Below, in pieces: positions 35,289 through 55,645 of a stretch of 64,000 nt of DNA (positions are counted from its first letter, which is position 1; each line of letters starts with the position of its first letter). The position numbers were made by a program, and so were the translations under genes. This stretch comes from Tricholoma matsutake. Lineage: Eukaryota > Basidiomycota > Agaricomycetes > Agaricales > Tricholomataceae. The DNA is taken from positions 248,001-312,000 of the forward strand of contig AP026543.1 in the NCBI GenBank assembly GCA_026075535.2. Direction: 5' to 3'. The notes under the pieces were generated by a model, which was not told the origin of the DNA, did no database searches, and worked only from the letters and a program-made list of their open reading frames with translations.

Positions 35289-36202
35289 GATGATTTGGGG
35301 TGAGTCACAACGACACCCAATTATTGATGGGGCTATTGTACTATTGACCTCATGTGATCCTCGTGTCGATGATATGTTTTATGTCAATGACAAGAATGAT
35401 TCTTTCCTTCACATCAGTCCCCCCCAATGCTGCCTGAGCCATCAGAGAACCTGCGGTTGAGACAGTACTGGAAGGGAAGGAGATATACGGTTGAAGAGTG
35501 GAAGATCATTGAGCCTTATAAAGTTGCATTCCGATTGCAGGAATTGAAAGCTGGCTGATTGCAAATACTCAAGTGTGACATCCTCCCAGCAATGTTCAAC
35601 TACTGGGTATCAATTGACAGGGCCCCTATGGATGAGGAGGAGAGTCACATTTGTGCCAAGGTAAACTCACAAGCATGTGAAGGTTGTATTATTGATCACA
35701 TTGCCAGGAACTAACAACCTGGCTTTCCAACAACTGGTGAATGACCAAAGGCCTCTCACAGAAATCGGACGACTTCAAAGTAAAGTGGTCAGAAGTCATT
35801 TGGAGCTTGTACCGGGACTGAGTTTTCCAACAGATTGCAAACCTGTTAGGTGTTGAGGACACCACCACAAGTACACCAGGATGGTTCCAAGTGCGACTGC
35901 CAGCTATCAAGCATGTTTTCAACACCATGAATGCAGAGGAGAAAGGAGGTCTTTACACTCCCCCACCTTTCCCGTCAGAGTCCGACTGGAGTCCACCAGG
36001 ACTGTTCACCAGCCAACTGCCTGCAAAGTTGCCAGTCCAGTCCCAGTCCAGTCTGACTGGACTCCAAGTGGAATCCACTCAAACACCGGATTCCACTCGG
36101 ACTGGTCCAGTGGAGTCCAATGGAGTCCAGTTGGAGTCCGAGTGGAGTCCAGTCAGATTCTGAGTGGAGTCCAGTCGGATTCCACTGAAAAAGTGTGTAA
36201 GA

Positions 36203-36285
36203 AAAGGAATTGAACCCAGATCTCTGTAGGTTGCTTATGTAATCAATCATGATGCACAATATAACCATTACACCACAGTACCTTG
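36203..36285 (-). other. E1 left tRNA-like module
   Basis: Minus strand: A-box-like TGGTGTAATGG (36275-36265) and B-box GGGTTCAATTCC (36217-36206), 47 nt apart. The D-arm wording GTGGTGTAATGGTTA differs from the right module and from E3/E4 left modules. No acceptor stem is evident. Confidence 0.65.
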
Positions 36286-36533
36286 TGTGAGGCATCATCT
36301 ACTTGCATTAGGTACCGTGGTGCAGCTGTGTATGACAAAGCATATTGCCGCGTCATCAAATGTGCCAGCTCATCACTCACCACCACCACCACCACCACTG
36401 TCGACGCCGCCTCCTTCCCTCCTCTCTCTACCACCACCACCACTGCATGGACACCCACTGCCACCACTCCCATGCCCAATCTGCCATCACCACCACCCGC
36501 AAACGAGCCGAATGGATGGAATGCGGGCCCTAC

Positions 36534-36747
36534 ATAAGTTTTTTTCATTTGGTTTTTGTTTTTATAAACTAACTAACTCATTTTTTTAGTTTTCTAGGTT
36601 ATAATCTACTAGTAACGACACCACCACCCACAAACGAGCCAACGTGGGCCCAAACGATGCAGATCGCGTTGTTTGGGCCCTACATAAGTTTTTTTTGTTT
36701 GGTTTTTGTTTTTATCAACTAACTAACTCGTTTTTTGAGTTTTCTAG
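36534..36747 (+). repeat. E1 intron-like units (two)
   Basis: 36534-36597 and 36684-36747, each 64 nt: ATAAGTTTTT start (GTAAGT with CpG-derived G-to-A), CTAACTAACT branch-like sequence, T-rich tract, TTTCTAG end. Each follows a GGGCCC..GGGCCC palindrome or its remnant, and each is followed by GTTATAATCTACTAGTAA. Confidence 0.7.
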
Positions 36748-36807
36748 GTTATAATCTACTAGTAATGACACCACCACCCGCAAACAAGCCAACACACCCA
36801 CCCCATG

Positions 36808-37225
36808 CCTATGAGCCCCTGCTCATAGGGTGGATCGTGAGTGTGTGCAGTTGATGACGATGATGACGATGCCGCCTACCAGCACCAGGACCCAGAACGA
36901 CCCAGACCCAACGACACCCATGCCAGCCCCCTCCTCCCGATCCAAATGGGATGTGAGGGTGTCGATAAAGGATAGGAGATGGCAGAGGGGTACCGGGAGA
37001 CCTGCGGAGCAGGATACCCACCTGGTAAGCACCCACCTACCCCCTCCCTTGCATGCCACATCACTGACCATTCCCCCCAACCCCTCTGAACTAGGAGACC
37101 CACAAAACTGACAACACACCCACCCCACACCGATGAGCACCTGCTCGTCAGGTGGATGGTGGGTACACCAGGGTTATGATGATCAGAGCACCCATCCCCA
37201 CGCCTACGAGCCTCTGCTCATAGGG
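36808..37225. repeat. E1 GAGC-hairpin array (three)
   Basis: Hairpins at 36808-36830, about 37130-37152 and 37203-37225, of the form CCTATGAGC-cccc-GCTCATAGG, each followed by GTGGATNGTGNGTG. Confidence 0.75.
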
Positions 37226-37316
37226 TGGATGATGGGTGCAGCTTGCTACGGCAATGGACGCATGCGAGGAGGGGTGGGCGATGACACCCACCCCAGACTG
37301 CATCCCCCAACCCCCC

Positions 37317-37556
37317 CTCCCCCACATTTTGCGTGGGGAGGTCTTTATTATTTTTAATTTATCTCTGCTCCCCCCTTGCACTGAATGCGAGGGGTATATA
37401 TATTGTAGTACTTATGAATCCCCCCCTCACGCCGAATGTGAGGGGTTTAGTTTTTTATGTACATAGTAATAATCCCCCCCCTCTCGCAAGATGCGAGAGG
37501 GGTTTTTTTTTGTTTATCATTATATTATACCCACTCCCTTGTGTCCTACACGAGGG
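37317..37556. repeat. E1 C-rich/G-rich hairpin array (five)
   Basis: Five stem-loops about 50-60 bp apart, for example CCCCTCTCGCA..TGCGAGAGGGG followed by TTTTTTTTT (about 37478-37510). Others are CCCCTCACGCC..GAGGGG and CCCCACATTTTGCGTGGGG. Confidence 0.75.
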
Positions 37557-37663
37557 ATGTGGCTAATTAAAATTTTTTGATCTTAATTGTTTGAAAAATG
37601 CCTCCTCGAAGAATATGAAAAGTTGAGTCATAAGTAAACCTTATATTGAACCCTAATAAATCT

Positions 37664-37745
37664 CCTGTGGCTCAAGTGGTTGAGCACACTTGTTTGGTTT
37701 GTCATGTGATTCCTTATGGTGAGGTCTTGAGTTCAATTCCTGCAG
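37664..37745 (+). other. E1 right tRNA-like module
   Basis: A-box-like TGGCTCAAGTGG (37668-37679), B-box GAGTTCAATTCC (37729-37740). An anticodon-arm-like stem CACTTG..CATGTG lies between. Points toward the right terminus. Confidence 0.7.
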
Positions 37746-40290
37746 TACACAAATTTATTTTGTCAGTACTTTATGAAATTCACCAACTCCAAAGTCCTTT
37801 GAGCTCATATCTAATTGACTTATCATTTGGTTGAAATGCATTCCACTTGGACTCCACTTGGACTCCACTTGGACTCCACTCGGACTCCAGTTGGACTCCA
37901 ATGGGCAATTGAACTCTACATGACTTAGTGTAGTTCAATTGGACTCCACTTGGACTCCACTTGGACTCCAGTGGACTCCAGTCAGTCCGGTTGGAGTCCA
38001 CTAGGACAGGTGGGGGACTGTAAAGTACTGGGAGAAAGCCATCCTTGAAGTCAAACAGGAGAAAATGATGCGGGAAGGATATCCGGAGCAGACAAAGTGA
38101 GTGTAAGTTAAAGCTGATGCCATTGCCATTGCTGTTGCCGGACATAACAAACATTTCACAGTCTAGCAGACAAATACCTCCTTAAATGTGTGGTGGAGAA
38201 TGCATGACAACAGTGGCTGGAAATGGGGGTGTTGTCTGTGACATTTACAGCCTATACTGCACCTAATGGTTTGATGGTTGTTGACATGTGAGTCCCCGAA
38301 TCATTTACTGCCAATGCGATGCTGATGCTGATGCCGACTCCAGTCACGAAAATGTTGCCTCTCCGATAGCCACCCCTGCACAATTGTTTCTGGACACATA
38401 TCATGATCAAGTCACTGAACTGAAGCGAAACTTTATGAGTTATATCAAGTTTTTATGCCCATCACACCTTGCTTCAAGGTCAGCAACACAACATAATGCA
38501 ACACTAACCCGATTAGCAATGACTAACCATGGCTTCCCGATCCTTCCCACATCATGGAAAGGATCACAATTCAAGAAAAAAGAGCTGGAAGAATGGTTTA
38601 TGTTGTATGTTGGCCAGCATTACAGTATGTTGACTTCCTATTCCACAAACCGTTACTTATCTCCTCCAGAACTAGCAAACAATGGTCATAGTCGCCATAT
38701 CCCATTCAAAGCAATTGCAGATTGGACATCATCATTTGTCAGTCCAGAATATCTCCCAGCTAGGTTCAAAATAAGAGACCCATGGAACATGCACAAGAGT
38801 GTCATAGAAGACTTCTTTGACCATGTTCTGCAGCAACAAATAGTGCAGGGCCCTGAAAGAGTGTTCCGGTTCAAAGCGATCAAAGCCATGGATGGGAGTG
38901 TGGCTCCTGCACACTATCCGAAAGATTTGAATAACCCTTCACCCTCCCGACATATTTCCAAATGCAGGGGCTGAAGAAATGATGATCCCGATCCTCATAG
39001 TGGCACTGAGCTGGGGGCCATTGCCAATGCCAAACCGCCTTCTGCAAACCGCAGGGGCCGAAGAAATGATGATGCTGATGCCGATCCTCAACCCAGCACC
39101 AAACTGGAGGCCGTTGCCGCTGCCAAACCGCCTGCTGCATCAAGAGGCAGAAAAGTTGTCAAAGGCAAACCCAAGTGCAAGGAAGCTCACCGGATATCAA
39201 CAGCAGGACAGACCCCAAATTCTGATACAACTGAATCACAATATGTCCAAGTGGATCAAATGACAATGGACAGCCTCTGCATGGTTGGTGTCACTCAACC
39301 ACAGCCAATTAATGGTCCTAGTGATGGTGAACCAGAATATCTCATTCCTCGACACATTTACATGAGATACATCACGCCTGGATCAGCTGGAAACACCATT
39401 GTAAATGATCCCCCATGCCCAATTGATCCATTTCTGTTGGATATACCTCAAGAGAGCTCACAATGCCCTAAGGCTCGACCACTTTTAGGGGGAAATTGGA
39501 TGGAGCATCCTATTGCAAGGGCTAGGGCTTTAGCAGCATTAGTGGGATTGGCAATGGCAACACCAATATCAGCAATGGCACCAGTAGGATCGGCAATGGC
39601 AACACCCATATCAGCAATGACAACAGTGGGATCAGCAACAGCAGCACCAATATTGGCAACAGCAACTGTAAGATCAGCAGCAGCACCAGTAGGATTGGCA
39701 ACAGCAACACCAATATCAGCAACGACAACAGTACGATCGGCAATGGCAACATCGGCAACAGCAACAGTACGATTGGCAATGGCAACATTGGTAACAGCAA
39801 CAGTACAATCGGCAACGGCAACATCAGGATTGGCAGCAAATCCATCCTTGGCACGAGCACAACCTATCTGAAGGACAGCTGATGACCTTGCACAGCAGGA
39901 AGCCATTTCAACCCAGGCTGTTGGGAGGAGACAGAGAATTAAAAAAGTGAAATTTGCAGAGTAGATTTACAAATAAAACACTATGTAATGTGAAAAAAAA
40001 TAGTCCAACTTTTATGTACATACCGAATCACGAGGTCTTTACACTCCCCCCTGTATTCTGATGTCATTTTCACTGGCCAAATTGACATGAAATGGCACAT
40101 TTAGTCCTAGTCCAGTCCGATGTAGTCCGATCAGAGTCCAATCGGACTATTGGAATTTCCTAGGAATTTCCGATCATAGAAATCACATAGGACTAGTCCG
40201 AAGTTATGCTAAGACATCAGACAACATAGGATTCTGATAGGAATAAAAGCAGCCTTGCTTAGTAATATAGTATGAAAAATTAAATGCACA

Positions 40291-40362
40291 CACGAGAATT
40301 GAACACTTGACTACAGAAGATTATGTAAGCATAAACCGACAACAATACCATTAGGCTAAACA
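40291..40362 (-). other. E2 left tRNA-like module
   Basis: Minus strand A-box-like TAGCCTAATGGT (40358-40347) and B-box GTGTTCAATTCTC (40306-40294). A third, different tRNA-like head compared with E1 and E3/E4. Confidence 0.65.
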
Positions 40363-40549
40363 GCAACTCCCACCACCACCACCAATGACAACAAGCACAC
40401 CACCTCATCCCCCCCACCTCAACCACCTCAAACCAGCAACTCCCGCCACTCCCACTTCACCCCCATCTCTAGACGAGCCCCCAAGACCGGAAATGACTGG
40501 TTTTGACGCCAAACAATGCCCAAATGACACAATTGTCGTTTGGGCCATA

Positions 40550-40615
40550 GTAAGTTTTTTTTTTCATTCATTTTTTACTTTTGTAAACTAACTAATTCAG
40601 TTGTTTTGTTTCTAG
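40550..40615 (+). repeat. E2 intron-like unit
   Basis: 66 nt: GTAAGTTTTT, CTAACTAATTCAG, T-rich, TTTCTAG, followed by GTTCTAATCTAC. The preceding palindrome is reduced to GTCGTTTGGGCC. Confidence 0.7.
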
Positions 40616-40842
40616 GTTCTAATCTACATGAGTAACGACGGACTGATGTGAGCCAAACCCACACCCAACGACGCCCCTGGCAACCCCCCTCCTCCCCATC
40701 AAAACGGGATGTGAGGGTATCGATCATGGTCAGGAGCGTGGGGAGCAACACCAGGAGACCCCAGAAGGGGAATACCCAAGCACCACCCGACCCCTCCCCT
40801 CGTGCCACATCACTGACGAACCAACAACACACCCACCCCATG

Positions 40843-41026
40843 CCTACAAGCTGCTGCTCATAGGGTGGATCATGAGTGCATCCACGACACCGATGACATC
40901 CAGCACCCCCCATCACTGCCATGAGCAACTGCTCGCGGGGTGTATATGGGGTGCAAGAGCATGGGAACAGCGTGGAGGGACAACGATGGCACCAAACGAC
41001 ACACCTACGAGCAGCTGCCCATAGGG
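40843..41026. repeat. E2 GAGC-hairpin array (three)
   Basis: 40843-40865, 40918-40940 and 41004-41026, variants of CCTACGAGC..GCTCATAGGGTGG. Confidence 0.7.
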
Positions 41027-41271
41027 TGGTTCGTCAGTGCAGACAACGAGGGGGATGAACTACGAGGGTGACAAGGGGGGGGGGGGATGAAACAACAAGG
41101 GGAAAGGGAGATGACAACCAGAAAGAAGATGGAGGGGAGACGAGGGAGGGGAGGGAAGCCATGGGGGAGGCAAGGTGAGAGAGGCGAGACACGACAGAGA
41201 CGAGAGGGAGGGGAAATGACAGGACAGGGCTGACGAGACAGCCGCCACAATGCACCACCACCCCCTCCACT

Positions 41272-41410
41272 CCATTTCGCAGGGGGGTGGGTTTTTTTTG
41301 TAGAATTTAAAATAGTATAATTAAATAGTATAATTCATTCTCCCCCTCGCATTTGCGTGGGGGTTTTTTTTTAAATCTATATTAGTTATCTACTCCCTCG
41401 CAAAGATGCG
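41272..41410. repeat. E2 C-rich/G-rich hairpin array (three)
   Basis: Includes CCCCCTCGCATTTGCGTGGGGG followed by a run of nine T (about 41342-41372), and CCCTCGCAAAGATGCGAGGG (about 41395-41414). Confidence 0.7.
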
Positions 41411-41514
41411 AGGGCTCAACAATTTTTGTTCGAGCTCTTGTGAGAGAGGTTAAAAATAAGTGAACTAATCCTAAGTGCTTTAAATGGACTTTATATTACA
41501 TATTTATTAATGCT

Positions 41515-41590
41515 CCTGTGGCTCAACTGGTTGAGCACTTGTTTGGTAGTCATGTCACTTATATCCCAAGGTCTAGAGTTCAATTCTTGC
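41515..41590 (+). other. E2 right tRNA-like module
   Basis: TGGCTCAACTGG (41519-41530) and GAGTTCAATTC (41576-41586). Clearly homologous to the right modules of E1, E3 and E4. Confidence 0.7.
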
Positions 41591-41943
41591 TCTGCCCATT
41601 TATTTTGTAAGCACTTTCATCAAGTTAAGTCTTCCAAAATGGTGTGGTATTCCGACTACTACCTGTTGGAATTGCATAGGACTTTACTCAGAATTTACTA
41701 GGAATTTCTTGGAAATAAAAGTACATGGTCATCAAGATACATTCCGATCGGATTCCTATAGGACTCCTAGGACTATTGTCGGACTAGTAGGACTCCTATT
41801 GGAAAACTCGGACTCCTAGGACTCCGATAGGAATATGGGGGGGAGTGCAAAGTTTACTGAATCACATCTATTCTTTTCTGCCTCGCTTCATCTCCCCTCT
41901 GTCCTCAGATTTTCCTGCTCTCTTCCTTGGGTTCAGCTGAGGG

Positions 41944-43653
41944 GTGGTACTTCTGGAACGTAGTCCAGATGGACCAGGGGTCAGCCCACGTGAGGATCGG
42001 TGCAGCTGTGCAGGGGGAGGGGAGGGCTGGGGTGAGGTGACTACATTGACTGCACAACTTCCACCAGCAATTGGACAAGAAAATGCATCCCTTTACAGTT
42101 GTACAATAGGCATCAATCCAAAGTCCTTATATGACCAGGAGGCTGCCATGGGCAAAGCCTTGTGGCACCAAGTAACAACTGTTGTGATTCTGCAGAAAAA
42201 TATGAGACAAGGGAATCACCAGAAGACACAAATTTTTGTACTCCTTTAGAAAACATGAGATACAAGGCTTGCACTCTTGCAGACATTGCATTTCTAAACA
42301 GTCATGTTTCTAGCCCAGGACAAGGCAAACCAAATGTTATGCAAAAGCAATTCTATCACTGCCTTGAATGCTCACAAGGATGAGATAAACTGACTAGGCA
42401 CACTACATTTTGCAGCAGAAACAAAGCAATTGTTGCACCATTTTTTTTCTCAAGACTCAGTGCCTTCAAAAGAAGCCAGAGAGAAAAACCATCTCAAGGG
42501 AAGCTACAAGCACACTATCAAGCATGCAACACTTCCTATTGAAGCACAAAAAACTCTGTGGAACCAATCCCCTTGTGCCAACACCAAACTCATTCCCGGT
42601 AAGCTTTCTGTGTGTGTTGGTATGCCTGTTATGATCCATGTCAATTCTGCTACTGAGCTCTGTATGACTAAGGGGCAGAAAGCAGTTGTTTACTCTTGGC
42701 AAGCAAGTAAAACAGCTGATGGCACTGTTGTGCTAGACACACTCTTTGTCAGTCTGGTCAATCCTCCTTCTCAAGTCCAACTAGATAATTTACCTCCAAA
42801 TGTTGTGCCTTTGACATGAACTACTGTATCCATATCTTGTTTGTTGCCTGATGACACCTCTCTGACAATTTCATGCAACCAAGTTGAAATCCTGCCCAAC
42901 TGGGCCATGACAGACTATGCCTCCCAAGGAAAAACAAGACCCCTAAATGTTGTGGACCTCAGCTACAGTAGGTCACACCAAGCATATTACACTGCCCTCT
43001 CAAGAAGCTCTACCGCGGCAGGCACATTGATTCTTACAGGCTTTTACCCCCACAAAATCACAGGGGGTGCTTCAGGAGCACTCAGACAAGAATTCCATGA
43101 GCTTGAAATATTAGACAACATTACAAGACTGAATTTTGAAGGCAAACTCCCTGTAGAGATGGTCCAAGCAGACAGGAGAAACAGTTTATTTGCTATGTAT
43201 AGACAACTGAAAGGTGAAGACTACATGCCCCCCACTGTCCACAATGCTATCAGATGGGGACCTAGTGATGCTTTTCTAGAGCGGCCACATAGTAATATGG
43301 AATGGGCTCTGGTTGACAAAAGCACAAAGACCACCTCTCCAGACAATGTAACTGTGCCTCTGACCATGCCCACAGTGAAAAAAACATGCCCCTTAAAAAA
43401 CCAGGAAAACATAGCCCTACTCCAACACTGCTTGGAACACAACCATCTAAAAAACCAACACTCTCATGCACACCCACCCCCAACAACTTCCTTGCAGCCA
43501 GTTGGGACCCAATGGACAAACAATAGATGTTCTTATGATGTAGTTGTTACTATCCTTTTTAATATATGGTACAATGCTCACCATGCTCACCAAGTGTTGT
43601 GGGCAAACATGCATGTTTTATTTATAGAACAGCTACATACAGCCATAGTATAG
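41944..43653 (+). pseudogene. PIF1-like helicase remnant, Helitron type
   Basis: C-terminal half of a superfamily-1 helicase. AQLPPAIGQENASLYS, EAAMGKALWHQVTTVVIL and NMRQ follow motif III; the frame shifts near 42.2 kb (PEDTNFCTPLENMRYKACT) and again near 42.4 kb. LSVCVGMPVMIHVNSATELC, motif V-like MTDYASQGKTRPLNVVDL and motif VI-like YYTALSRSSTAAGTLILTGF follow. TGA after VVPLT (near 42820) leaves the frame intact. A last segment WTNNRCSYDVVVTILFNIW resembles a fused cysteine-containing domain; its role is unknown to me. The N-terminal ATPase motifs and the Rep domain are absent, so this is a 5'-truncated relic. No Helitron terminus was identified. Confidence 0.75.
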
Positions 43654-43788
43654 GAGAAAGAAAATAAGTTCCTTGTCTCATTGCCCCCACTTGTCTCTAA
43701 GAGAATTATCTCTTCTCTGTTCATTTCCCAGCCTGATTTCCAATAGGTTATGGGCCCTGGTGGATTTTTCTAGGCAACAATTACAACT

Positions 43789-45001
43789 ATGACAAATACT
43801 CCTGATGTCAAGGAGCAAGGGGAACAACAACAAGAGGAAGAATATTATATGCCTCCTAAACATACAAAAAGGGTCTATCACAGCAATACCAATGCGCCCA
43901 CTGAAGAACTCAATGAAGATGAAGATTTACCATCTATCAAACTAATTCATACCAAAGAATATTCGAATGTAAACAAAATCACTGATCGCGATCACTTGAT
44001 GGACGAGAACTGGCACAAATGGAAAGAGAGAATGAAGAGGGTATTTTTCAATTGCAATATTACTGGGTATGTTAGGGGGGATGTTGAACGCCCTAACAAG
44101 AGTATCAACCCCAAAGGCGCATGCAACTGGTACAAGAATGATTCTTGGGTGCAACAAATTATTATTCATAACATCACTTCCTTGCAAATGAACCACATCG
44201 GGTCCAAGAACTCTGCAAAAGAAATGTACTCTGCACTCTCAGTAACTCATGAAAATAAGGCACATCAAACTGTTAATCATATTTAATGCCTATTATACGA
44301 GACCAAATTACTCGATGCTGATGACCTCCTAAAACATCTGGATGTTCTCAAATCATATCATAACTGCATCAACAGATTTCCTAACAAGGAATTTCATGTC
44401 TTGGACACCTGCTTTAAAGTGATCATATCTGCATCCTTACCTTCATTGTGGCATACCTATGTTGAACCTTATAACGGGAACGCCAATAATCCAAATGATC
44501 CCGACCCTAAATGGCACTTAACTTCTGATGCATTTATTGGACTGTTATGGGAGGAATACAAGATATGGTTGACCAGATCTAATAATGGGAATAATAAAAA
44601 TGGTACTATGGGGAGTGTAAATCTGGTAAAACCCAGAATGCTAACAGTGCTAGTAAATCCCTAGAAGATCGAATCTCTGATCAAAAATCCTCCTTATGGC
44701 CTTATTGCAATCATTGTAAATGTGCCGGACACTGGACAGCCAAATGCCATAAATTTGAAGGGAACAAATGTGGGAACTGTGGAAAGATTGGACATCAAGC
44801 AGACAAATGCTGGAGTAAGAAGAAGGTGAAGTACAAGGCAAAGAAGAAAAAGAAGGATGCAGAAGAAACAAATGTGGCAGAAGAATATATTATGTTCCAA
44901 GCAAATGAAGAGCAGTACAACTTCGATACCTATGATACTTGTAATGCTGATGCAAATGATGAGTGATTGGTCTATTATGATTGGTTAGCAGACACAGCAA
45001 C
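43789..45001 (+). pseudogene. Ty1/Copia Gag and start of protease, truncated by Gypsy C
   Basis: ATG 43789 (MTNTPDVKEQGEQQ). Gag domain of the UBN2 type: LMDENWHKWKERMKRVF, ITGYVRGD, WVQQIIIHNIT, then TAA 44284-44286 (CAA-derived), LLDADDLLKHLDVLKSY, FHVLDTCFKVII and LPSLWHTYVEPY. After a frame shift near 44.66 kb come two CCHC knuckles: CNHCKCAGHWTAKC and CGNCGKIGHQADKC. The protease start DWLADTAT is cut at 45001 by Gypsy C. The first bases 43654-43788 may be the end of a 5' LTR and leader, but no pair is present to prove it. Confidence 0.8.
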
Positions 45002-45659: not shown

Positions 45660-45713
45660 TCACCTCCCTTCTATCTTTGAAGTCACTGACTTTGAATTAC
45701 TATCTTCTTTCTC

Positions 45714-46440: not shown

Positions 46441-46471
46441 GTTAGGTGGGGATTTTCTGGTCTTGGAGGTT

Positions 46472-47582
46472 CTACAGCTGTCGTCGCTGTTTATATGGCC
46501 CTAGGATTCTCTTGGCATTAGTCAGGTTCCTCTTGGGTTCCCATGAGTTCTCCGAGGTCGGGTATCTGACCCACTTCACTAGGAAGTGCATGGTTCTCCC
46601 TTTTCTTTTGTGTCCAACTATTGCTTCCACTTCATACTCCGATTTGCCTTCTATTAGATCAGGCAGTGGTTTTGGGAAGTTCAGTCCATGTGCTTCGGTT
46701 TCTTTATATGGGGAAAGGAGTGCCGCATGGAACACTGGGTGTACTTTCCACTGATCGGGTAGTTTCAGCCAGTAGGAGAGTGGGCCTAAGGCCTCTTTGA
46801 TAGTGAATGGTCCTTCTCTTTTTGGTGTGAGCTTCTTTGTCAAGTGAGTCATTTTGAGGTTCTTTGCTTCTAGCCACACCTTATCTCCTTCTTTGAACGG
46901 GGTGAAGTGTCTCATCTTTCTTTCCGCCATCATTTGTCTGGCTAACTCGTGAGTTGCCTTTGCTTCATCTCGGGCTCATTGCAGTGCGACAATTCGTTTC
47001 TCGATAGCTGGTATGTTCATTTTCAAATAGGGGAGGGGGATTGCCTTGGGTTCATAGCCCATCATAAGGTAGAATGGGGAGTTCTTCTGTATGGAGTGTG
47101 TCCTCTGATTGTGTGTGAACTCCGCCATCGGGAGGAGGTGCTTCCAATTCTCCTGGTTGTTCAAGCAGAAGATCTGTAGGTATACTTCCACCTCTTGGTT
47201 CACCCATTCTGTCTCCCCATCGGTCTGTGGGTGGTATGCCATGCTCATTGCCAGTTTGATTCCAAGCAGTCTTCCTAGTTCCTGGAAGAGCTGCAAGGCA
47301 AATCTTGGGTCTCTGTCAGATATGATCTTGTCCAGGAGGCTGAATCATTTGTAGACGTAGTCCAAATAGAGGTTGGCCGCTCCCAATGCGTCCATGGTTT
47401 TCCTGCAAGGGATAAAAATTATGCCCTTCATAAGACCATGGTCTACCATGACCATGAGAGTGTCACAGCCATCGGATTCTGGTAGGTCGGTTATGAAATC
47501 AGTCATAACCATCGCGAATGGCCTCATTGCTTCAGATCTAATTGGTTGTAGAGGTGGTGTCATCAGGTGGGTGTTGACCTTC
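46472..47582 (-). pseudogene. Gypsy C integrase core and chromodomain
   Basis: Continues the integrase cut by E3. MTDFITDLPESDG (Asp), IISDRDPRFA (Asp) and TDGETEWVNQEVEVYL (Glu) give an intact DDE set. TGA 47345-47347 and TGA 46976-46978 interrupt. Then WLEAKNLKM, KREGPFTIKEALGPLSYW, VHPVFHAALLSPYKE and chromodomain YEVEAIVGHKRKGRTMHF, LVKWVRYPTSENSWEPK. Confidence 0.85.
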
Positions 47583-47835
47583 ATTTGCTGGAGTACTTTA
47601 CACTCCCCCACCTATTCCAGTTGGATTCTGGTTCATCTGGCCAGAATTTCTGGGATTTCTGGAATCCAGTGGAATTTTTTTTGTATGTAGTTTTCCCTAT
47701 GCAGCACAATTCCAGTCAGAATAAGGATCCAATTTACAGCCAGAATCCCCAGAATCTGACCGGACTCATCACAACCAGAATAACAGGAATAACTGGAATG
47801 CACGTGCTTTCCCAAATTAAAGTTTGACACACATC

Positions 47836-47899
47836 AATAATTGAACTCTCGACCTTGGGTCTGCATACATAACAGCACGCTTAACCACTGAGCTACCAA
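47836..47899 (-). other. E3 left tRNA-like module
   Basis: Minus strand TAGCTCAGTGGT (47895-47884), a near-perfect A box, and GAGAGTTCAATT (47850-47839). Intervening 34 nt, normal for a tRNA. Confidence 0.7.
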
Positions 47900-48171
47900 G
47901 CAATTATTCTTTGGTATACATTTAATACTTTTATTACCCAACCAAGGTACATAGTTAATCACAGCCATTAATGGAATAATTGATAAGTATGCATATGCAT
48001 GACACGTGACACGTGACTGCCAGCTCACAACCACTATCACCACTGTTGCCAACGCCGCCTCCTCCTCCTCTCCACTCTACCACCACCACTGTGTGTGCAC
48101 CCACCACCACCATTCCCACGCCCAATGCCACCATCACCACCACCTTCAAATGAGCTGACTGGATGGAATGC

Positions 48172-48423
48172 GGGCCCAAACGACGCAGATCGTGTCGTTT
48201 GGGCCCTATGTAAGTTTTTTTCATTTGGTTTTTGTTTTAATAAACTAACTAACTCATTTTTTTAGTTTTCTAGGTTATAATCTACTAGTAACAATGCCAC
48301 CACCCGCAAACGAGCCAACATGGGCCCAAACAATGCAGATCGTGTCGTTTGGGCCCTATGTGAGTTTTTTTCATTTGCTTTTTGTTTTTATAAACTAACT
48401 AATTGTAATTTATTGCTTTTTAG
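48172..48423 (+). repeat. E3 palindrome plus intron-like units (two)
   Basis: Perfect 13-bp palindrome arms GGGCCCAAACGAC / GTCGTTTGGGCCC (48172-48206, 9-nt loop). It is followed by the intron-like 48210-48273 (GTAAGT, CTAACTAACTCA, TTTCTAG). A second copy follows with a mismatched palindrome (about 48322-48356) and unit 48360-48423 (GTGAGT). Confidence 0.75.
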
Positions 48424-48706
48424 GTTGTATACTACTGGGGACGACCTGCCACGACGAAAAATGCGCAACCCATGCCCACGCCCACCTGATCCCCTCCTCC
48501 CCATTCAAATGGGATGTGAGGCTGTCGACACGGGCTAGGAGGGTGCAGAGGGAGGGTACCTGCCTAGTAAGCACCCACCAACTTCTGTACCCATGCCATG
48601 TTGCACTGACATGCCCAAACCCCCCCCCCCCAAAAAAAAAAAGAAAAAAACAGAAATTCAGACAGGGGACAACAGCAACAAACAACGACAAGCCACCCAC
48701 CCCCAG

Positions 48707-48983
48707 CCTCACGAGCAACTGCTCGTGAGGTGGAACGTGAGTGGAATGGTGCCCAGGCACAGGGACAGGAGACAACAATGACACACCACCCACCCCCAGC
48801 CTCACGAGCAACTGCTTGTGGGGTGGATCGTGGGTGGAACAACAACAATGACAAGCCACCCACCCCCAGCCTCACAAGCAACTGCTCATGGGGTGGAACG
48901 TGGGTGGAATGGCACCCAGGTGCAGGGATAGGAGACGACAATGCACCACCTGCCCCCAGCCTCACAAGCAACTGCTCGTGGGG
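48707..48983. repeat. E3 GAGC-hairpin array (four)
   Basis: 48707-48730 (CCTCACGAGC-aact-GCTCGTGAGG, perfect 10-bp stem), 48798-48821, 48870-48893 and 48960-48983. Outer CCACCC..GGGTGG segments extend each stem. Confidence 0.8.
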
Positions 48984-49025
48984 TGGATCGTAGGTTGAAG
49001 GACAGACAACAGCGGGGTCACATCC

Positions 49026-49271
49026 CCTCCCCCTCCCCCACACTTTGTGTGGGGAGGGATTTATTTATTAGTATTGTGCCCCCCCTCCCCCGTTTTGCCT
49101 GGGGGAGGGATTTTTTTCTCCATGTTTTTACCTCCCCCCTCGTGTTCGGCGCGAGGGGTTAGCTTTTTATGTATATAAATAAAACTCCCTCTCGCATCTT
49201 GTGAGAGGGAGGATTTTTTGTTTATGTATATAATTACAATTATCCCCACTCCCTCGCATTCAATGTGAGGG
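49026..49271. repeat. E3 C-rich/G-rich hairpin array (five)
   Basis: Stem-loops CCCCCACACTTTGTGTGGGG, CCCTCCCCCGTTTTGCCTGGG, CCCCCTCGTGTTCGGCGCGA, CTCCCTCTCGCATCTTGTGA and CTCCCTCGCATTCAATGTGA, each closing with G-rich sequence and most followed by five or more T. Confidence 0.75.
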
Positions 49272-49360
49272 ATGTGGTTAATTAAAAAAATTTGATCTTA
49301 ACTACTTTGAAAAAAATTACAGTGTCATGAATAAACATTATATTACTAACTAATAATTCT

Positions 49361-49442
49361 CCTGTGGCTCAACTGGTTAAGCACACATGTTTGGTTTGTC
49401 ATGTGATCACTCTAATCAAGATGTCTTGAGTTCAATTCTTAC
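49361..49442 (+). other. E3 right tRNA-like module
   Basis: TGGCTCAACTGG (49365-49376), stem CACATG..CATGTG, B-box GAGTTCAATTC (49428-49438). Identical to E4's module. Confidence 0.75.
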
Positions 49443-49736
49443 TCTGCACAAATATATTTTGTAGGCACTTTGACAACTTAAGACTTGAAATTTGACTATC
49501 CATTAGGGTATATACTCTAAGTTGAGCATCTGGAGTAACCAGAATCTGGTCAGAATAACTGGAATAACTGGACTCCAACTGGAATAACTGGACTCCAATC
49601 GGAATAACTGGACTCTGACCGGAATAACTGGACTCCAACTGGAATAATTGGACTCCAACCAGAATAACTGGACTCCAACCAGAATAACTGAACTCCGACC
49701 GGAATAGGTGGGGGAGGGGAAATTACAGATTTGCTG

Positions 49737-52700
49737 GCACATTGCACATCCAGCGACGTAGTTCTTGATGTATGTCATCATTCCTGGCCACCAGTAGTCC
49801 CTCCTGACCATTTCTGTAGTTTGCCATTGTCCTGGGTGTCCACTGGTTACTCCCTCATGGTATTTTTGCACCAGTTTCTTTCGTAAATCTCCACTGTCAG
49901 GGATGTAGCACCTGTCTCGGAAGAATTGAAGCCCATCTTCTATCTTCCAGTCTTCTAATGCCGGTTTTATTGGTGGGGTTCCTTTCGTCTTTAGCACCTC
50001 AATTGCGCTCTTCACCAGGTCATCTTTCATGATACTTCCTGCAAGTAGATCATGAATTTCTGTATCAATGAACTTCACAAATACCATTTCAGGTAACATC
50101 GTGATGTCTTCATTATCATTGTCTTCTTCCGGTACATCATCAGCCCTTTGCAATAACACATTGCTTTGCACCATTTGTGATCTGGGCATGTGGATGAGTT
50201 GGAATTCAAATTCTGATAAGAATAGGCTCCATCTTGCCTGTCGTCTGTTCAGTTTCTGTGCCGTTCGGAAATACGTTAGGTTCTTGTGATCCAACAGGAT
50301 TACCACTGGGTGTTCTGAACCCAACAGGTAGTGTCTCCAGGTTTCTAGCGATCGTATTATTGCTAGTAGTTCCCTGTCGTATATCTCGTAGTTCTGTTCT
50401 GTTGGTGTTAGTGCATGCGATATATACCCGCATGGGTGCCAATCTCCATTCATATCCCTCTGTCTCAGTACTCCTCCCATCGCATGTTTTGAGGTGTCAG
50501 ATTCGATTGTGAATGGTTTAGTTGGGTCTGGCATCAGTAGGACCAGTGCTTCTGTGAATTTCCTTTTCAGCATCTGAAAGGCCTGTTCACATTCTGTTGT
50601 CCAGTTGAATGTCTTGTTCTTCTTCGTCAGTTCGTTAAGCAACCTGCTTGTCTCCCTGAAATGTCTGATGAATTTCCTGTAGAAGTTCCCAAATCCCAGG
50701 AAGGATCTAACTGCCTTTATGTTTGTGGGGGTGGGCCAATCTTGTATGCCTCCCAGCTTCATATTGTCCATTGCAATTTCATTGGGTCAGATGATCAGAC
50801 CCAGAAATTCTACCTTGTGGACATCAAACTTGCATTTCTCCGACTTCAGGTATAGGTCATTTTCTGCCAATCTCTGCAGCACCCTTCTTCTCCTTTCCTG
50901 GTGTTCATTCTGATCTCTGGAGAATATCAGGATGTCGTCCATGTAAATCACGAGCCATCCTTCTCCGATCATATCATGGAAAATCTCATTCATTATTGCC
51001 TGGAAGGTCGCCAGTGAGTTGCATAATCCAAAGAACATCACTGTTGGTTCAAACAGCCCTCTGTTTGTCTTGAAGGCTGCTTTCCATTGATCTCCATCCT
51101 TGATTCTGATGTTGTGATATCCCCATCAGATGTCCAGCTTCGTGAACCATCTTGCCCCTCTCAGTTTGTCCAACAGGTCCCCTACCAGCAGTAGTGGGTA
51201 GGTGTTCTTGATCATGCCATTGTTCAAATACCTGTAGTCCTGACATGGTCTCAGGGCATCCGAGTCCTTCTTTGCAACAAAGAAAAATGACGATGCCATG
51301 GGCAATTTCAATGGTCGGATATATCCCTTTTTCAGGCTCTCATCAAGGAACTTGTCGAGTTTCTTCTGTTCCACTGGTGACAGTGGGTACACCCTGCAGT
51401 CCTTTGCCACAAAGTCGGGTTTCAATTCTATCGTGTGATCCCAGGGTCTTGGTTCTGGGAATCTCTCTGATGCTTCTTTTTCAAATATCCTCTGGTACTC
51501 CTTATATTGTTCCGGGAGTAGTTTGTCTAGGGTTTTTTGCTCTGGGTCTCCTTCCTTCTTGTGCATTAGGTGTTGTGAGACCGATGTTTTTGCCCTAATC
51601 CAGATATTTTGTCCATAAGCGTATCGTGGTGATCCTTTTGCCTTAATGATCTGAGAGATTGTCTTCATTGCTTGGGAGTATGAGTACCTTGGCTTGTTGT
51701 ACTCCTCTGTCAGTGGCGATTTAGCCAGTTCAAATATTCCAATGATGGGTTCTCCTCGGATGTAGGTGACTAGTAGTTCATTGTCTGCAATCTTCTGTTC
51801 AGGTGTCCCTTCCAGTTGTTCCATTGCCTGTTCCATTGCCTGTTTGTGGTTTGCCAGTGCTGGGTTTTCCTTCCCAGTGTCTTCTTTGTCTTGTGGCCCA
51901 ATGGGCTCTGCGCTTTGGAGAGTCGTGATTGCGATCTCTTCGTCGTCCACTTCCTCAATTGTCGCTCTTCTTGTTTCAATGGGCATTTTGCTTCTTCTTG
52001 GTTCTGTGTGGAGGGCTCCTCCCATCAACCTTGCCTTGGCAATGATTCTTCGGCATTGCTCTAGCCATTCTTTGTTTGTCAGTTTCTTCTTGAGAGAGAG
52101 TTTCTCTCTTTCTCTAGCAACTATTTTTTGTATTTTCGTTATTCGCTCTTCTTCTTTCGCCTTCCTTTGGAGGGCGAGTTTCTCCAGTTCTTTAGTGGCT
52201 ATCTTTTGGCACCACGCCAGTCGCTCTTCTTTTGTCATCCTTTTGAATGTTCTTTCTCCTTCTTTGGTCATTTTTCAGCGCCAAGTCAGGTGCTTATCAT
52301 TGGATCCCTCAGTTTGCACCCTCCCGATAAGGGTCTTCCCCTTCCCAAATGAGAACTCAGGGTGTGTTCTGTCAGCCGTTTGGAATTGGAAGGTTCCGAT
52401 TCTCCAGCCAATTACTGGGTTGATTCTTCTGAGCCATGGCAGGCCCAGGATGATTGATTCTTTTCCCAATCCTGCAATGAGGAAAGTTGTTGGGAAAGAT
52501 CTTCCATTGATCGTTAAGAGTCCCTTGGCATAGTGGGAGATCTCCCCTTTCTTGTTCGGGGTTCCATCCACGTTCTTGACCCTGATTACTCTCTCCAAGG
52601 GGTGTAGCTCAAATCTGCTGCTCTCTGCGAATTTGTGGCTCATGAATATCCCTCCCGCTCCTGAGTCGAGTAGGGCTTCAGTTTCAATGGCTTTCCCTCT

Positions 52701-52799
52701 GCCTGCTCCTAGCACTTTGACATCCAAACACATAGATTGATTTTTCAAAGTGGCTAGTAGTACAGAGCAGACAGAGAGTTTGGTGGTACCTGGCATCAA
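49737..52799 (-). pseudogene. Gypsy C protease, RT, RNase H and integrase N-terminus
   Basis: Single frame from the frameshift site. Protease: LLDSGAGGIFMSHKF, GLGKESIILGLPWLRRINP. TGA 52275-52277. A Lys/Glu/Arg-rich coil (KEERLAWCQKIATKELEK) separates it from RT: YIRPLKLPMASSFFF, DALRPCQDYRYLN, FTKLDI, TGA 51126-51128, FGLCNSLATFQAIMNE, VIYMDDILIFS (catalytic). TGA near 50772. RNase [40 protein letters not shown]. Integrase HHCC: HEGVTSGHPGQWQT and CAMCQQ, then E3 begins. The stops have Arg codons at matching sites in D, except the one near 50772. Confidence 0.85.
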
Positions 52800-52823
52800 G
52801 GCAGGCCACCTCTTTAAAAACCC
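52782..52823 (-). promoter_or_regulatory. Gypsy C gag-pol -1 frameshift signal
   Basis: Minus strand: slippery heptamer G GGT TTT (52823-52817) directly before the gag stop TAA (52816-52814), six-nucleotide spacer, then a hairpin GGTGG-CCTG..CAGG-ta-CCACC (52810-52782). A -1 slip reads FLKRWP into protease. Spacing and heptamer fit the X XXY YYZ rule. Confidence 0.75.
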
Positions 52824-53573
52824 TCATCCCCTATCAATGCAAGAGCCTTTTCCTTCCCTTCTTCATCGAGTTCTTTCATGATCGCTCGGATCTTTGTGTA
52901 GGCTTCTTTGCCTTTCTTCTTTGGGAATGACTGGTTTTCGGTCCTTGTTTCCCCTTTCTTGTGCTCGGTTGCTCTGTGTCCTGGCTGGTGGCATACAAAG
53001 CATAATCCCTTCTTCATGTGCTCAATCCTCTCTTGATAGGAGAGTGGGTTGATCTCAAGTGGGCCTTCCTTCGTCTTGGAGCTCGGTAGCTTTTTTGCTA
53101 AGGCCTCTTGTGCTCTTCCTGTTATGGCCTTTGCTCTCCTCCATTGTCCATCATATTTGGAGGTGGCGGTGATCATTCCTTTTAGGGTTGTTGGGATCAT
53201 TTCCATGTTGAAAACTCTTTCAAGGAGTTTGGGGTTCAACCCATCCATAAAGAGTTCAATAAGGGCGGTGTCATCATTGATTCCTGCCTTTTCTCACAGG
53301 ATTCGGAATTGTGCAATGTAGTCCTCCAGGTCCTGTCCCTGCTTCAATGTTTTCATCTCTGTTCTGGCTCTGCCAGCTTTGTTGATCAGTGTGAACGCTG
53401 TCTTGAGCGCTGCTTCAAAGGTTGACCAGGTCCCCAGGTCTTCCTTTTCTGCCCATGTCTGTGCCCAGGGCACAGCAGTTCCTCCATTCATGAATGACAA
53501 CGCAAAGATGATCTTCTTCTTGTCAGTGTCATAAATTCCATAGTTCACTCTCAGATAGAGTTTTACTTCTTGT
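52814..53573 (-). pseudogene. Gypsy C Gag, central and C-terminal part
   Basis: Resumes after E4: LQEVKLYLRVNYGIYDTDKK, FALSFMNGGTAVPWAQTW, TFEAALKTAFTLINKAG, LEDYIAQFRIL, TGA 53294-53296 (CGA in D), LFMDGLNPKLLERVFNMEM and the zinc knuckle CFVCHQPGHRATEH. Ends EGF-TAA at the slippery site. Confidence 0.85.
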
Positions 53574-53854
53574 AAGAACTTGAGTACATTACACTCCTCC
53601 ACCTATTCCGGTTGGATTCCAGTCGGAATGCCCATTCCAATCAGAATTTCCGGATTTCCAGTCAATTCCATTTACATATTTTTTCTCACAATTCAGAATT
53701 CCGGTCGGACTGGGGGTCAATTTTACCCCTGGAATCCCCGGAATCTACCCGGACTCATTTTTACCTGGAATAGTCAGATAAACCAGATGCATGGCACTAG
53801 CATAACTGGAATAACCGGAATGCATGTGCTTTCCCAAATAAAATTTTGATGTGC

Positions 53855-53921
53855 AACAAGAATTGAACACTCGACCTTGGGTCTGCACACATAACAGCAC
53901 GCTTAACCACTGAGCTACCAG
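53855..53921 (-). other. E4 left tRNA-like module
   Basis: TAGCTCAGTGGT (53917-53906) and GAGTGTTCAATTCTT (53872-53858) on the minus strand. Same family as E3 left. Confidence 0.7.
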
Positions 53922-54222
53922 GTCATTATGCATCTACATACATCTAATACTTTTATTACATAACCAAGGTGCATAGTTACAGCCATTAACAGAATATGCA
54001 CACATGCATATTGCATGACACATGACACGTGACTGCCAGCTCACAACCACCACCACCGTCGTCAAGGCCACCTCCTCCTCCTCTCCACTCTACCACCACC
54101 ACTGCATGCGCACCTGCCACCACCATTCCCACACCCACTCCCACCATCACCACCACCTTCAAACGAGCCAACTGGACAGAATGTGGGCCCAAACAACGCA
54201 GATTGCATCATTTGGGGCCTAA

Positions 54223-54589
54223 GTATGTTTTTTTTTTGTTTGCTTTTTGTTTTTATAAACTAACTAACCTTTTTTTTAGCTTTCTAGGTTATAATCTACT
54301 GGCAACGATGCCACCACTCGCAAACGAGCCAATGTGGGCCCAAATGATGCAGATCGCGTCGTTTGGGCCCTACATAAGTTTTTTTTCATTTGGTTTTTGT
54401 TTTAATAAACTAACTAACTCATTTTTTTAGTTTTCTAGGTTATAATCTACTAGTAACAACGCCACCACCCGCAAACGAGCCAACACGGGCCCAAAAGATG
54501 CATATCACGTCGTTTGGGCCCTATGTGAGTTTTTTTCATTTGCTTTTTGTTTTTATAAACTAACTAACTCGTTTTTTTTACTTTTCTAG
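54223..54589 (+). repeat. E4 intron-like units (three)
   Basis: 54223-54287 (GTATGT donor), 54374-54438 (ATAAGT) and 54525-54589 (GTGAGT), each with CTAACTAAC and TTTCTAG. Palindromes GGGCCCAAATGATG..CGTCGTTTGGGCCC type precede units 2 and 3. Confidence 0.75.
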
Positions 54590-54649
54590 GTTATAATCTA
54601 CTAGTAATGACACCACCACCTGCAAACGAGCCAACACACCCACCCCACG

Positions 54650-54976
54650 CCTGCGAGCCCCTGCTCGTAGGGTGGATCGTGAGTGTGTGCAGGCAACAAC
54701 AACAATGATGCCGCCATCTACCAGCACCAGAACCCCCCAGAATGCAAAGCACAACAATGGACAACAACGACAGGGCCAACAACACACCACCTGCCCCCAG
54801 CCTCATGAGCAACTGCTCATGGGGTAGATCGTGGGTGGAACGACGCCCAGGTGCAACAACAATGACACACCACCCGCCCCCAGCCTCATGAGCAACTGCT
54901 CGTGGGGTGGATCGCGGATGGAACAACAATGACGACAAGCCACCCACCTCCAGCCTCATGAGCAACTGCTCATGGG
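54650..54976. repeat. E4 GAGC-hairpin array (four)
   Basis: 54650-54672, 54801-54824, 54883-54906 and 54953-54976, variants of CCTCATGAGC-aact-GCTCATGGGG. Confidence 0.75.
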
Positions 54977-55017
54977 GTGGATCGTTGGTGGAAGGACAGA
55001 CAACAGTGGGGTCACGT

Positions 55018-55277
55018 CCCCTCCCCCTCCCCCGCACTTCATGTGGGGAGGGATTTTTTTTGTACTTTTAATTATTTATTAGTATTGTGCCCCCCCTCCC
55101 CTGTTTTGCCTGGGGGAGGGATTTCTTTCGTCATTTTTACCTCCCCCATCGCGTTCGGTGCAAGGGGTTAGCTTTTTATGTATATAAATAAAACTCCCTC
55201 TCGCATCTTGTGAGAGGGAGGATTTTTTGTTTATGTATATAATCACAATCATGCCCACTCCCTTGCATTCAATGTGA
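55018..55277. repeat. E4 C-rich/G-rich hairpin array (five)
   Basis: Same order as E3, including CTCCCTCTCGCATCTTGTGA, closing with GAGGGAGGATTTTTT (about 55194-55227). Confidence 0.75.
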
Positions 55278-55369
55278 GGGATGTGGTTAATTAAAAAAAT
55301 TTGATCTTAACTACTTTGAAAAAAATTACAGTGTCATGAATAAACATTATATTACTAACTAATAATTCT

Positions 55370-55451
55370 CCTGTGGCTCAACTGGTTAAGCACACATGTT
55401 TGGTTTGTCATGTGATCACTCTAATCAAGATGTCTTGAGTTCAATTCTTAC
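55370..55451 (+). other. E4 right tRNA-like module
   Basis: TGGCTCAACTGG (55374-55385), B-box GAGTTCAATTC (55437-55447). Lies in a block of about 296 bp identical to E3. Confidence 0.75.
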
Positions 55452-55645
55452 TCTGCACAAATATATTTTGTAGGCACTTTGACAACTTAAGACTTGAAAT
55501 TTGACTATCCATTAGGGTATATACTCTAAGTTGAGCATCTGGAGTAACCAGAATCTGGTCGGAATAACTGGAATCCACTGGAATCCACTGGACTCTGGTG
55601 AGTCCGATTGGAATAGGTGGAGGAGTGTAAATTACTGAAGAACTT

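Follow-up and report, generated by a model that had tools for sequence, protein, structure and literature searches.

Several described classes of mobile element come close to the repeats considered here. Large MITE-like elements with terminal inverted repeats (TIRs), of the hAT or KDZ class, combine inverted ends and a fixed 8-bp target site duplication (TSD) with a non-coding interior and high copy number; according to the available part of one report (PMC12730594), 8 bp is the TSD rule of the hAT superfamily and also the length left by Zisupton and by a fungal Dileera. tRNA-type SINEs, which are retroposons, carry a Pol III-type internal promoter and are flanked by duplications of variable length without TIRs. 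In introners, as set out in an excerpt of PMC9860276, DNA-transposon features are joined with splice signals. The dimeric Alu-like element megB1 of Agaricomycetes is reported, in the accessible portion of PMC10627285, mainly from the rDNA spacer, and the section of Tricholoma to which matsutake belongs has a copy that lies elsewhere than in rDNA. Repeats designated 'unclassified' make up 25.4% of the published matsutake assembly, as stated in an extract of PMC10211490. A literature search covering parts of open-licence papers turned up no element that has TIRs together with a pair of Pol III modules.

The window analysed is a stretch of 64,000 nucleotides of Tricholoma matsutake DNA (contig AP026543.1, positions 248,001 to 312,000), and four insertions within it, E1 to E4 (Table 1), belong to a family of non-coding DNA elements with inverted repeats in this fungus. 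With large MITE-like elements the E family shares inverted ends, the fixed 8-bp TSD, the non-coding interior and the high copy number, but it is unlike them in its length of about 2 kb, its complex common internal order and its paired outward Pol III-type units. It resembles tRNA-type SINEs in having an A box, a B box and a T-run spaced much as in a tRNA gene although no tRNA is recognised, and one could argue that E1–E4 are SINEs with Pol III-type heads, at the level of motifs only, whose ends are inverted by chance; the TSDs of fixed rather than variable length, the inverted ends and the oppositely oriented modules at the two ends make this highly improbable. Introners, as excerpted, resemble the E family in joining DNA-transposon features with splice signals, but the intron-like units of the E family lie within a longer element and none was seen spreading alone (one unit type, 26 places). 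megB1, compared by description only and from the available portion of its report, is likewise a non-coding element in Tricholoma, and its reported concentration in the rDNA spacer sets it apart. The reading that we favour, and regard as probable, is that E1–E4 are high-copy non-autonomous cut-and-paste transposons moved in trans and equipped with paired outward Pol III-type promoter units of presumed role.

Table 1. Positions in the window of elements E1–E4 and of their internal features
Feature	Positions	Strand	Details
E1	35946..38030	+	2085 bp; TSD GGAGAAAG at 35938-35945 and 38031-38038
E1 left Pol III-type unit, outward	36202..36275	-	A box 36265-36275, B box 36206-36216, T-run 36202-36205 directly after B box
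E1 intron-like units, two	36534-36597, 36684-36747	+	both start ATAAGT, GT lost
E1 GAGC hairpins	36813..37219	+	cores 36813, 37135, 37208
E1 C-rich hairpins then T-tracts	37272..37601	+	
E1 right Pol III-type unit	37668..37761	+	A box 37668-37678, B box 37730-37740, T-run to 37761
E2	40032..41857	+	1826 bp; TSD CGAATCAC/TGAATCAC, 1 mismatch
E2 left Pol III-type unit	40276..40358	-	A box 40348-40358, B box 40295-40305, T-run to 40276
E2 intron-like unit, one	40550..40615	+	GTAAGT...CTAAC...TAG
E2 GAGC hairpins	40848..40934	+	cores 40848, 40923
E2 right Pol III-type unit	41519..41606	+	A box 41519-41529, B box 41577-41587, T-run to 41606
E3	47591..49728	+	2138 bp; TSD ATTTGCTG; host is an LTR element
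E3 left Pol III-type unit	47837..47895	-	A box 47885-47895, B box 47837-47847; T-run not found
E3 intron-like units, two	48210-48273, 48360-48423	+	GTAAGT; GTGAGT
E3 GAGC hairpins	48713..48977	+	cores 48713, 48806, 48876, 48966
E3 C-rich hairpins then T-tracts	48969..49298	+	
E3 right Pol III-type unit	49365..49460	+	A box 49365-49375, B box 49429-49439, T-run to 49460
E4	53582..55637	+	2056 bp; TSD AAGAACTT; host is an LTR element
E4 left Pol III-type unit	53840..53917	-	A box 53907-53917, B box 53859-53869, T-run to 53840
E4 intron-like units, three	54223-54287, 54374-54438, 54525-54589	+	GTATGT; ATAAGT; GTGAGT
E4 GAGC hairpins	54655..54971	+	cores 54655, 54807, 54890, 54960
E4 C-rich hairpins then T-tracts	54978..55307	+	
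E4 right Pol III-type unit	55374..55469	+	A box 55374-55384, B box 55438-55448, T-run to 55469

The first-pass annotation had bounded E1–E4 exactly by 8-bp TSDs and related inverted ends, and both coordinates and duplications are confirmed, that of E2 with one mismatch. The ends are related 16-bp inverted repeats, typified by GAGTACTTTACACTCC / CTGTAATTTACCCTCC, with GAGTA, GAGGT or AAGTA on the left and CAGTA, CTGTA, CAATA or GTAAA on the right. Among 35 full copies, E1–E4 included (1.75–2.57 kb long), the TSD is perfect in 23, has one mismatch in 9 and two in 3; since the copies were picked at no more than two TSD mismatches, the perfect share is the telling figure. Decoy offsets gave a TSD-like match at no more than two mismatches in 5 cases of 490. 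When the window was scanned blindly for pairs of inverted 14-bp ends (at most 4 mismatches) next to an exact 8-bp duplication, E4 and E1 were listed among other pairs, many of which stem from repeat arrays; E2 and E3 are absent from the list. The empty sites that the neighbouring LTR element D had been said to provide align without gaps, at 86% over 120 bp for E3 and 91% over 117 bp for E4, and these two insertions are the ones covered by empty-site evidence for TIR transposition. When an element is cut out with exactly one TSD copy and the longest frame compared with that of alternative removals, the claimed restoration of the host frame stands for E3 (314 aa, against 120–250 aa) and E4 (215 aa, against 104–137 aa) but is weak for E1 (126 aa against 73–133 aa), which the longest-frame test does not favour; for E2, for which no such restoration had been claimed, the test gives no support (70 aa against 66–85 aa). 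A plausible frame of about 60 aa spans the E1 site.

The E family numbers over a thousand copies in the matsutake genome, of which E1–E4 are a sample. The genome search for ends and modules foreseen in the first-pass annotation finds 1,350 exact left ends, with a pattern that does not catch the E4-type end GAGTACATT, and 661 exact right ends (reversed-pattern controls, 0), together with the right-hand module at 1,605 places at no more than one mismatch. On chromosome 1, 62 of 92 right modules (the 92 of 100 matches listed that fall within the left-end list) have an element end in register, compared with a random mean of 1.3 and with 2 in flipped orientation, and 30 have none. Copies devoid of TIRs and TSD, named beforehand as the contrary observation, are not the rule genome-wide: 10 of 20 further copies chosen by the left end alone possess a right end and an 8-bp TSD at no more than two mismatches. 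In L043, L044, L049, L050, L053, L054, L055 and L058 the right end is listed 2.5–8.5 kb off, beyond the stretch read, and in L057 it is matched 4.4 kb away, with the TSD outside the stretch read. L056 has both ends, its true right end lacking a duplication (6 of 8 positions mismatched); it was excluded from the 35 copies, its apparent TSD having stemmed from a spurious right end. L009 is E4 itself and was not counted separately, and L010 has the insertion of E4 in common, which leaves 34 independent insertions; as the copies are kin to each other, counts over copies are not independent.

Six frames of E1–E4 (133–166 aa) have no Pfam match, nor do the longest frames of L050 (303 aa) and L053 (270 aa). 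In the copies sampled by left end, frames being listed for 8 of the 20, the 459-aa frame of L043 is a nested copia gag (Pfam), and that of L054 is copia-like by eye, without a Pfam match. With terminal inverted repeats, a TSD of fixed length, no recognised coding capacity and many copies, the family has the attributes of MITE-like elements, and its initial description as non-coding, with TIRs and 8-bp TSDs, is supported by the 35 copies and by the frames of E1–E4. The internal order of modules attributed to E1–E4 is kept in 33 of the 35.

At both ends, an A box, a B box and mostly a T-run recur at tRNA-gene spacing and face outward, including in module types that are not otherwise alignable. 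Outward pairs of A and B boxes (at most 3 mismatches) are present on 58 of 70 sides, against 2 of 70 for inward pairs and 40 of 700 dinucleotide shuffles; at looser mismatch limits some pair is found in 450 of 700 shuffles. TTTT follows within 30 nt of the B box in 32 of the 35 modules on the left and in all 34 on the right, with a background of 4% (left) and 19% (right) in other 30-nt windows of the same ends. The independent evidence consists of six module types, one of which (L057) has no T-run by eye, and in another (E1 left) the T-run abuts the B box; compared with each other they are 85% identical in the B box, 61% in the A box, figures inflated by the use of the box consensus to locate the modules, and 51% in the stretch between, near the 47% of shuffled sequence. 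In two copy groups conservation is highest over a stretch that includes the right module (means of 0.97–1.00 in 60-base windows). The outward 'tRNA-like' modules of the first-pass annotation stand as outward Pol III-type units at both ends, but not as tRNA proper. ARAGORN called no tRNA, an Rfam scan of the window found none at gathering score, and none appeared at E up to 10 in 8 loci or in two short segments containing the E4 and E1 left modules; the Rfam tRNA model recognised 53 tRNAs of 63 scored among 11,061 first-look candidates in the same genome, at 41–61 bits. An identity of the modules tested as folded tRNAs or tRNA genes is without support.

This lack of recognition leaves room for the idea that the modules are relics or parts of transposase-binding ends, their likeness to tRNA genes being inherited from a captured tRNA-like sequence that no longer serves Pol III. 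Any binding site present in inverted copies would likewise face outward at the two ends, and both modules are indeed inverted and within about 400 bp of the ends. A binding site has no need of a terminator, however, and not the B box alone but also the A box and mostly a T-run recur among types that between the boxes are hardly more alike than shuffled sequence. We consider this idea unlikely, though of some weight. On the favoured reading of trans-mobilised transposons with Pol III-type units, a transposase supplied by another element would bind the ends and the subterminal repeat arrays, and the unit near each end, with its A box, B box and T-run, would most likely be bound by TFIIIC. The units might then either yield short RNAs of about 90–110 nt or keep chromatin open at both ends, an activity that could help the element to evade silencing and stay accessible to the transposase. 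A bolder version, which seems rather improbable, would make the family a distinct group of DNA transposons in which both outward units are functional components (TFIIIC/Pol III activity at the two ends insulating the element from methylation-based silencing or positioning it for transposition), in which the units are renewed by different tRNA-derived sequences with boxes, position and orientation kept, and in which a spliced hairpin-rich non-coding RNA is encoded inside. If the modules work, these would be DNA transposons that engage the Pol III apparatus of their host at either end, as is otherwise mostly associated with retroposons, at over a thousand places in an ectomycorrhizal genome, and it would become testable whether TFIIIC binding shields cut-and-paste elements from silencing; even with silent modules, the E family would help to sort the repeats of Tricholoma.

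Between the modules, the plus-strand interior, with intron-like units followed by hairpins with T-tracts, most likely is, or derives from, one directional non-coding transcription unit. The intron-like units are tandem, 60–66 nt long, and bear GT, branch-site and TAG signals of spliceosomal type; in the 35 copies 83 lie on the plus strand and 0 on the minus strand. Tandem units of this size with such signals could also be mobile introns in their own right, akin to introners, but 22 of 88 start with AT in place of GT, and 25 of 26 places on chromosome 1 (the 26 of 100 matches listed that fall within the left-end list) sit inside elements in register with an end, which renders such independence very unlikely; the pattern covered one unit type, and diverged units in host genes would escape it. 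The GAGC hairpins number 115 in 35 copies and comprise 32 distinct 24-mers, in at least 26 of which 8 of the 10 stem positions pair, 4 positions being partly fixed by the search pattern; for the outer six positions 162 of 192 cells are paired, against 62–105 when slid. One pair swaps C-G for T-A (17 and 14, plus 1 G-C), which may be a single old change. RNAalifold was run on 20 of 24 diverse stretches (all but E2, L017, L020 and L033); its covariation term was -0.11, and in 8 of 68 pairs both partners had changed. With this near-zero term conserved RNA structure is without support. In two copy groups with 9.3% and 6.8% CpG bases, C>T or G>A changes at CpG make up 42% and 26% of the substitutions, respectively; such decay, a source of much variation, can mimic covariation. 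Exact stems of at least 7 bp followed by TTTT occur 30 times on the plus and 5 times on the minus strand of the 35 copies, and 0 times in one mononucleotide shuffle each; E2, E3 and E4 have none by this strict rule.

The 8-bp TSD had been taken to fit mobilisation by hAT or KDZ transposases, and its length agrees with both, but no transposase-bearing relative with E-family ends was found among the placed hAT and KDZ domains, long end pairs and candidate loci examined. The placed domains come from the first 10 Mb of chromosome 1, at places within the left-end list. For hAT, whose candidates amount to 449 at first look, those placed being drawn from at most 150 listed, no domain of 6 lies between both ends and 1 of 6 lies by one end (random 1% and 12%, a weak test). 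The 10-mer TTTACACTCC occurs near the 3' border of one hAT family (L059, L071, L077), within a palindrome and not at the tip; the other two motif matches in 30 hAT loci (L080, L081) are neighbouring E-family ends facing away from the hAT domain, and the common 3' homology borders of the hAT loci, which may not be true ends, have no E-type end. Typical hAT ends are of type CAGNG / TAGNG, and hAT TSDs are biased to T at position 2 and A at position 7. The E-family left and right ends are not of that type, and its TSDs have no such bias (6 of 35 and 12 of 35), which makes a hAT transposase in particular a doubtful agent. A KDZ transposase of Zisupton or Dileera type is a slightly better, still tentative, candidate: the E family has the 8-bp TSD with TIRs that Zisupton and the fungal Dileera produce (PMC12730594, available part), there are 831 first-look candidates in the genome, and two KDZ genes lie within the window. 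Against it, none of 17 placed domains, drawn from about 150 listed, is flanked by both ends and 2 are by one end (a weak test, chance about 1%), and the sole candidate TIR of the large KDZ element in the window, GTAGTGATAAAGTC, is unlike the E ends.

Long end-to-end pairs (7.9 and 8.5 kb, chromosome 1) were rejected as autonomous partners, being ordinary copies in the 2.4 kb read, with the copia insert in L043 and the frame of L054 that is copia-like by eye. L006, with a Tc5-like frame 0.5 kb inside a right end and below the Pfam cut-off, was also rejected: its end, middle and frame match separate repeats, which makes it a mosaic, and its 74 relatives are, by eye, not at E-type ends on chromosome 1. 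L057 shares the left end of the E family and carries a left module, but its interior is different; two frames within the first 2.4 kb read have no Pfam match, and a coding remainder may lie beyond. The right end 4.4 kb away suggests a putative sister family of 4,445 bp (C1:10227844-10232288).

Besides LTR elements and the remains of KDZ transposases, the window carries four non-coding elements with terminal inverted repeats (TIRs), E1 to E4, for which re-examination found the same ends, lengths and 8-bp target duplications as the first-pass annotation. E3 and E4 lie inside an LTR element, and the empty sites reported for them in D, a neighbouring LTR element, are undisturbed in a gap-free alignment. 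Restoration of the host frame, which had been claimed for E1, E3 and E4, was borne out for E3 and E4, where the longest frame is obtained if removal leaves a single, exact copy of the duplication; E1 was not favoured by this longest-frame test, the only plausible frame across its site being short (about 60 amino acids), and removal of E2 received no support from it. Tandem repeats lie inside open frames at two places in the window.

Positions of the elements and related features
Feature	Position	Description
Window	G000:C6:248001-312000	T. matsutake genome of 161,040,721 bases, 13 contigs
E1	window 35946-38030	TIR element
E2	window 40032-41857	TIR element
E3	window 47591-49728	TIR element
E4	window 53582-55637	TIR element
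Tandem repeat	window 3681-4298	117-bp unit, inside open frame
Tandem repeat	window 39490-39823	21-bp unit, inside open frame
KDZ-bearing element, ~15 kb	window 6646-22400	inverted subterminal arrays containing repeated TGGGCCCA
L057	G000:C1:10227844-10232288	left end as in the family, a tRNA-style module, other interior, right end matched at 4.4 kb, outside the stretch read
L006	G000:C1:316207-317722	mosaic of family right end, another repeat and Tc5-like frame

The ends recur throughout the genome, with 1,350 occurrences of the left end GAGKNCTTTACACTCCNC, 350 of the stricter form GAGTNNTTTACACTCCNCCAC and 661 of right ends of type CWGTANTTTACMCTCCNCCA, the reversed pattern being absent in each case. 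The first 20 chromosome 1 places on the strict left-end list were sampled regardless of their interior; 19 of them have sequence in common with E3, and 10 possess a right end and a duplication at no more than two mismatches. The match that would have made L056 an eleventh such copy was spurious, its true right end likely being one without a duplication, and for eight of the other nine places a right end is listed at 2.5–8.5 kb, outside the stretch read. Together with copies similar to E4, the sampled left-end copies yielded a set of 35 full copies, 1,752–2,568 bp in length (median 2,044), which represent 34 independent insertions. E4 shares its duplication with its closest relative, L010 (97% identity), and the flanks of the two are 96.5% and 97.5% identical across 200 bp, which indicates that the host LTR element was duplicated while carrying E4.

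The tRNA-like modules that had been described as reading outward near both ends were searched for as consensus A box (TRGYNNARNGG) and B box (GGTTCRANTCC) at tRNA-like spacing. An outward pair is present on 69 of 70 element sides; at most three mismatches are needed on 58 of them, a limit at which inward-facing pairs occur on 2 of 70 sides and pairs in dinucleotide shuffles in 40 of 700. Because the copies are related, the stronger test is a comparison of six module types (left modules of E1, E2, E4, L008 and L057, and the right module of E1), among which identity is 85% in the B boxes, 61% in the A boxes and 51% between the boxes, versus 47% when shuffled. A TTTT run starts within 30 nt past the B box in 66 of the 69 modules, the frequency in other windows being 4% (left) and 19% (right). 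Partly by eye, the onset was placed 13–17 nt past the B box, a distance like that in tRNA genes, in four of the six types (E2, E4 and L008 left, E1 right) and directly at the B box in the E1 left module; no T-run was seen in that of L057. Neither ARAGORN nor Rfam, however, called a tRNA in the modules tested, though the same Rfam model finds at least 53 tRNAs in the genome at 41–61 bits. At the level of motifs, the modules are therefore best described as Pol III-type promoter units, in which they resemble the heads of SINEs, rather than as tRNAs. The right module falls inside the best conserved stretch of two groups of copies (22 and 11) and occurs 1,605 times genome-wide at no more than one mismatch (control, 0); among the matches listed on chromosome 1, 62 of 92 places have an element end in register (1.3 at random); truncation or divergence of the copy may account for the remaining 30. 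Separately, 20 of the 53 tRNAs (scored on chromosomes 1–3) have an identical score of 56.3 bits, with two pairs about 295 bp apart, and are perhaps an amplified, dispersed tRNA.

The single internal order proposed for the four elements holds in 33 of the 35 copies, running from left module through intron-like units and the last GAGC hairpin to right module; the exceptions are L016, where the right module was not detected, and L035, where intron-like units were not. In 20 aligned stretches the right module is immediately preceded by C-rich hairpins with T-tracts, the L013, L031 and L045 rows each lacking one or two of these hairpins, and the subterminal arrays are, by eye, unlike in sequence between E1, E2 and E3/E4. 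Intron-like units number 88 in 37 of 38 sequences (the 35 copies and three partial ones), with a length of 60–66 nt in 87 and of 72 nt in one. They show branch sites of the CTAAC type, TAG ends and a 5' start of GT in 64 and AT in 22, frequencies that are not an independent test because the search pattern demanded part of these signals; the AT starts probably derive from CpG decay of an ACGTAAGT context. In the 35 copies, 83 units lie on the plus strand and none on the minus, a bias that is independent evidence in part only, the copies being related. One unit type, searched for at no more than two mismatches, occurs 652 times genome-wide; of 26 such places that were checked, 25 are in register with an element end, and for this type there was no sign of solo spread.

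Judged as a transposon, this family adds a member to a known type; what is new about it are the paired outward Pol III units and the intron-like, hairpin-rich interior, and no such element was among the papers listed by searches of the open-licence literature. The published repeat table of the assembly has a 'small RNA' class of 2,342 copies and 1.94 Mb (PMC10211490). Per copy this is far too long for small RNAs, and the family may be hidden in that class under a wrong label.

Direct observation covers the ends and their duplications, the two empty sites, the number of copies, the internal order and the promoter motifs; beyond this, the outward units would most likely bind TFIIIC. Such binding may serve transcription or insulation, or have no role; a parallel exists in fission yeast, where B-box elements act as boundaries in the mating-type region. 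CpG decay is strong in 33 element copies forming two groups: CpG bases make up 9.3% (E4-type) and 6.8% (E3-type) of the sequence but take 42% and 26% of the substitutions. This would fit methylation of the elements, on which view an anti-silencing role of the modules is attractive but unproven.

The elements would be mobilised in trans, the transposase being one whose target duplications are 8 bp long, as is the case for both hAT and KDZ (PMC12730594); both are abundant in the T. matsutake genome. Within the first 10 Mb of chromosome 1, family ends enclose none of the 6 hAT and none of the 17 KDZ domains placed, chance being about 1%, so that the result shows only that enclosed transposase genes are not common. 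In a hAT family (L059, L071, L077), TTTACACTCC, the same 10-mer as in the ends of E1 to E4, forms part of a palindrome (CCATATAT...ATATGG) near the 3' border, a weak lead. From its first 2.4 kb, L057 appears to be a sister family, which makes it a possible locus of a coding partner. The Tc5-like frame of the mosaic L006 has 74 relatives in the genome, and the KDZ-bearing element of the window has one candidate TIR, GTAGTGATAAAGTC, with flanks CGACACTG/CGGCACTG.
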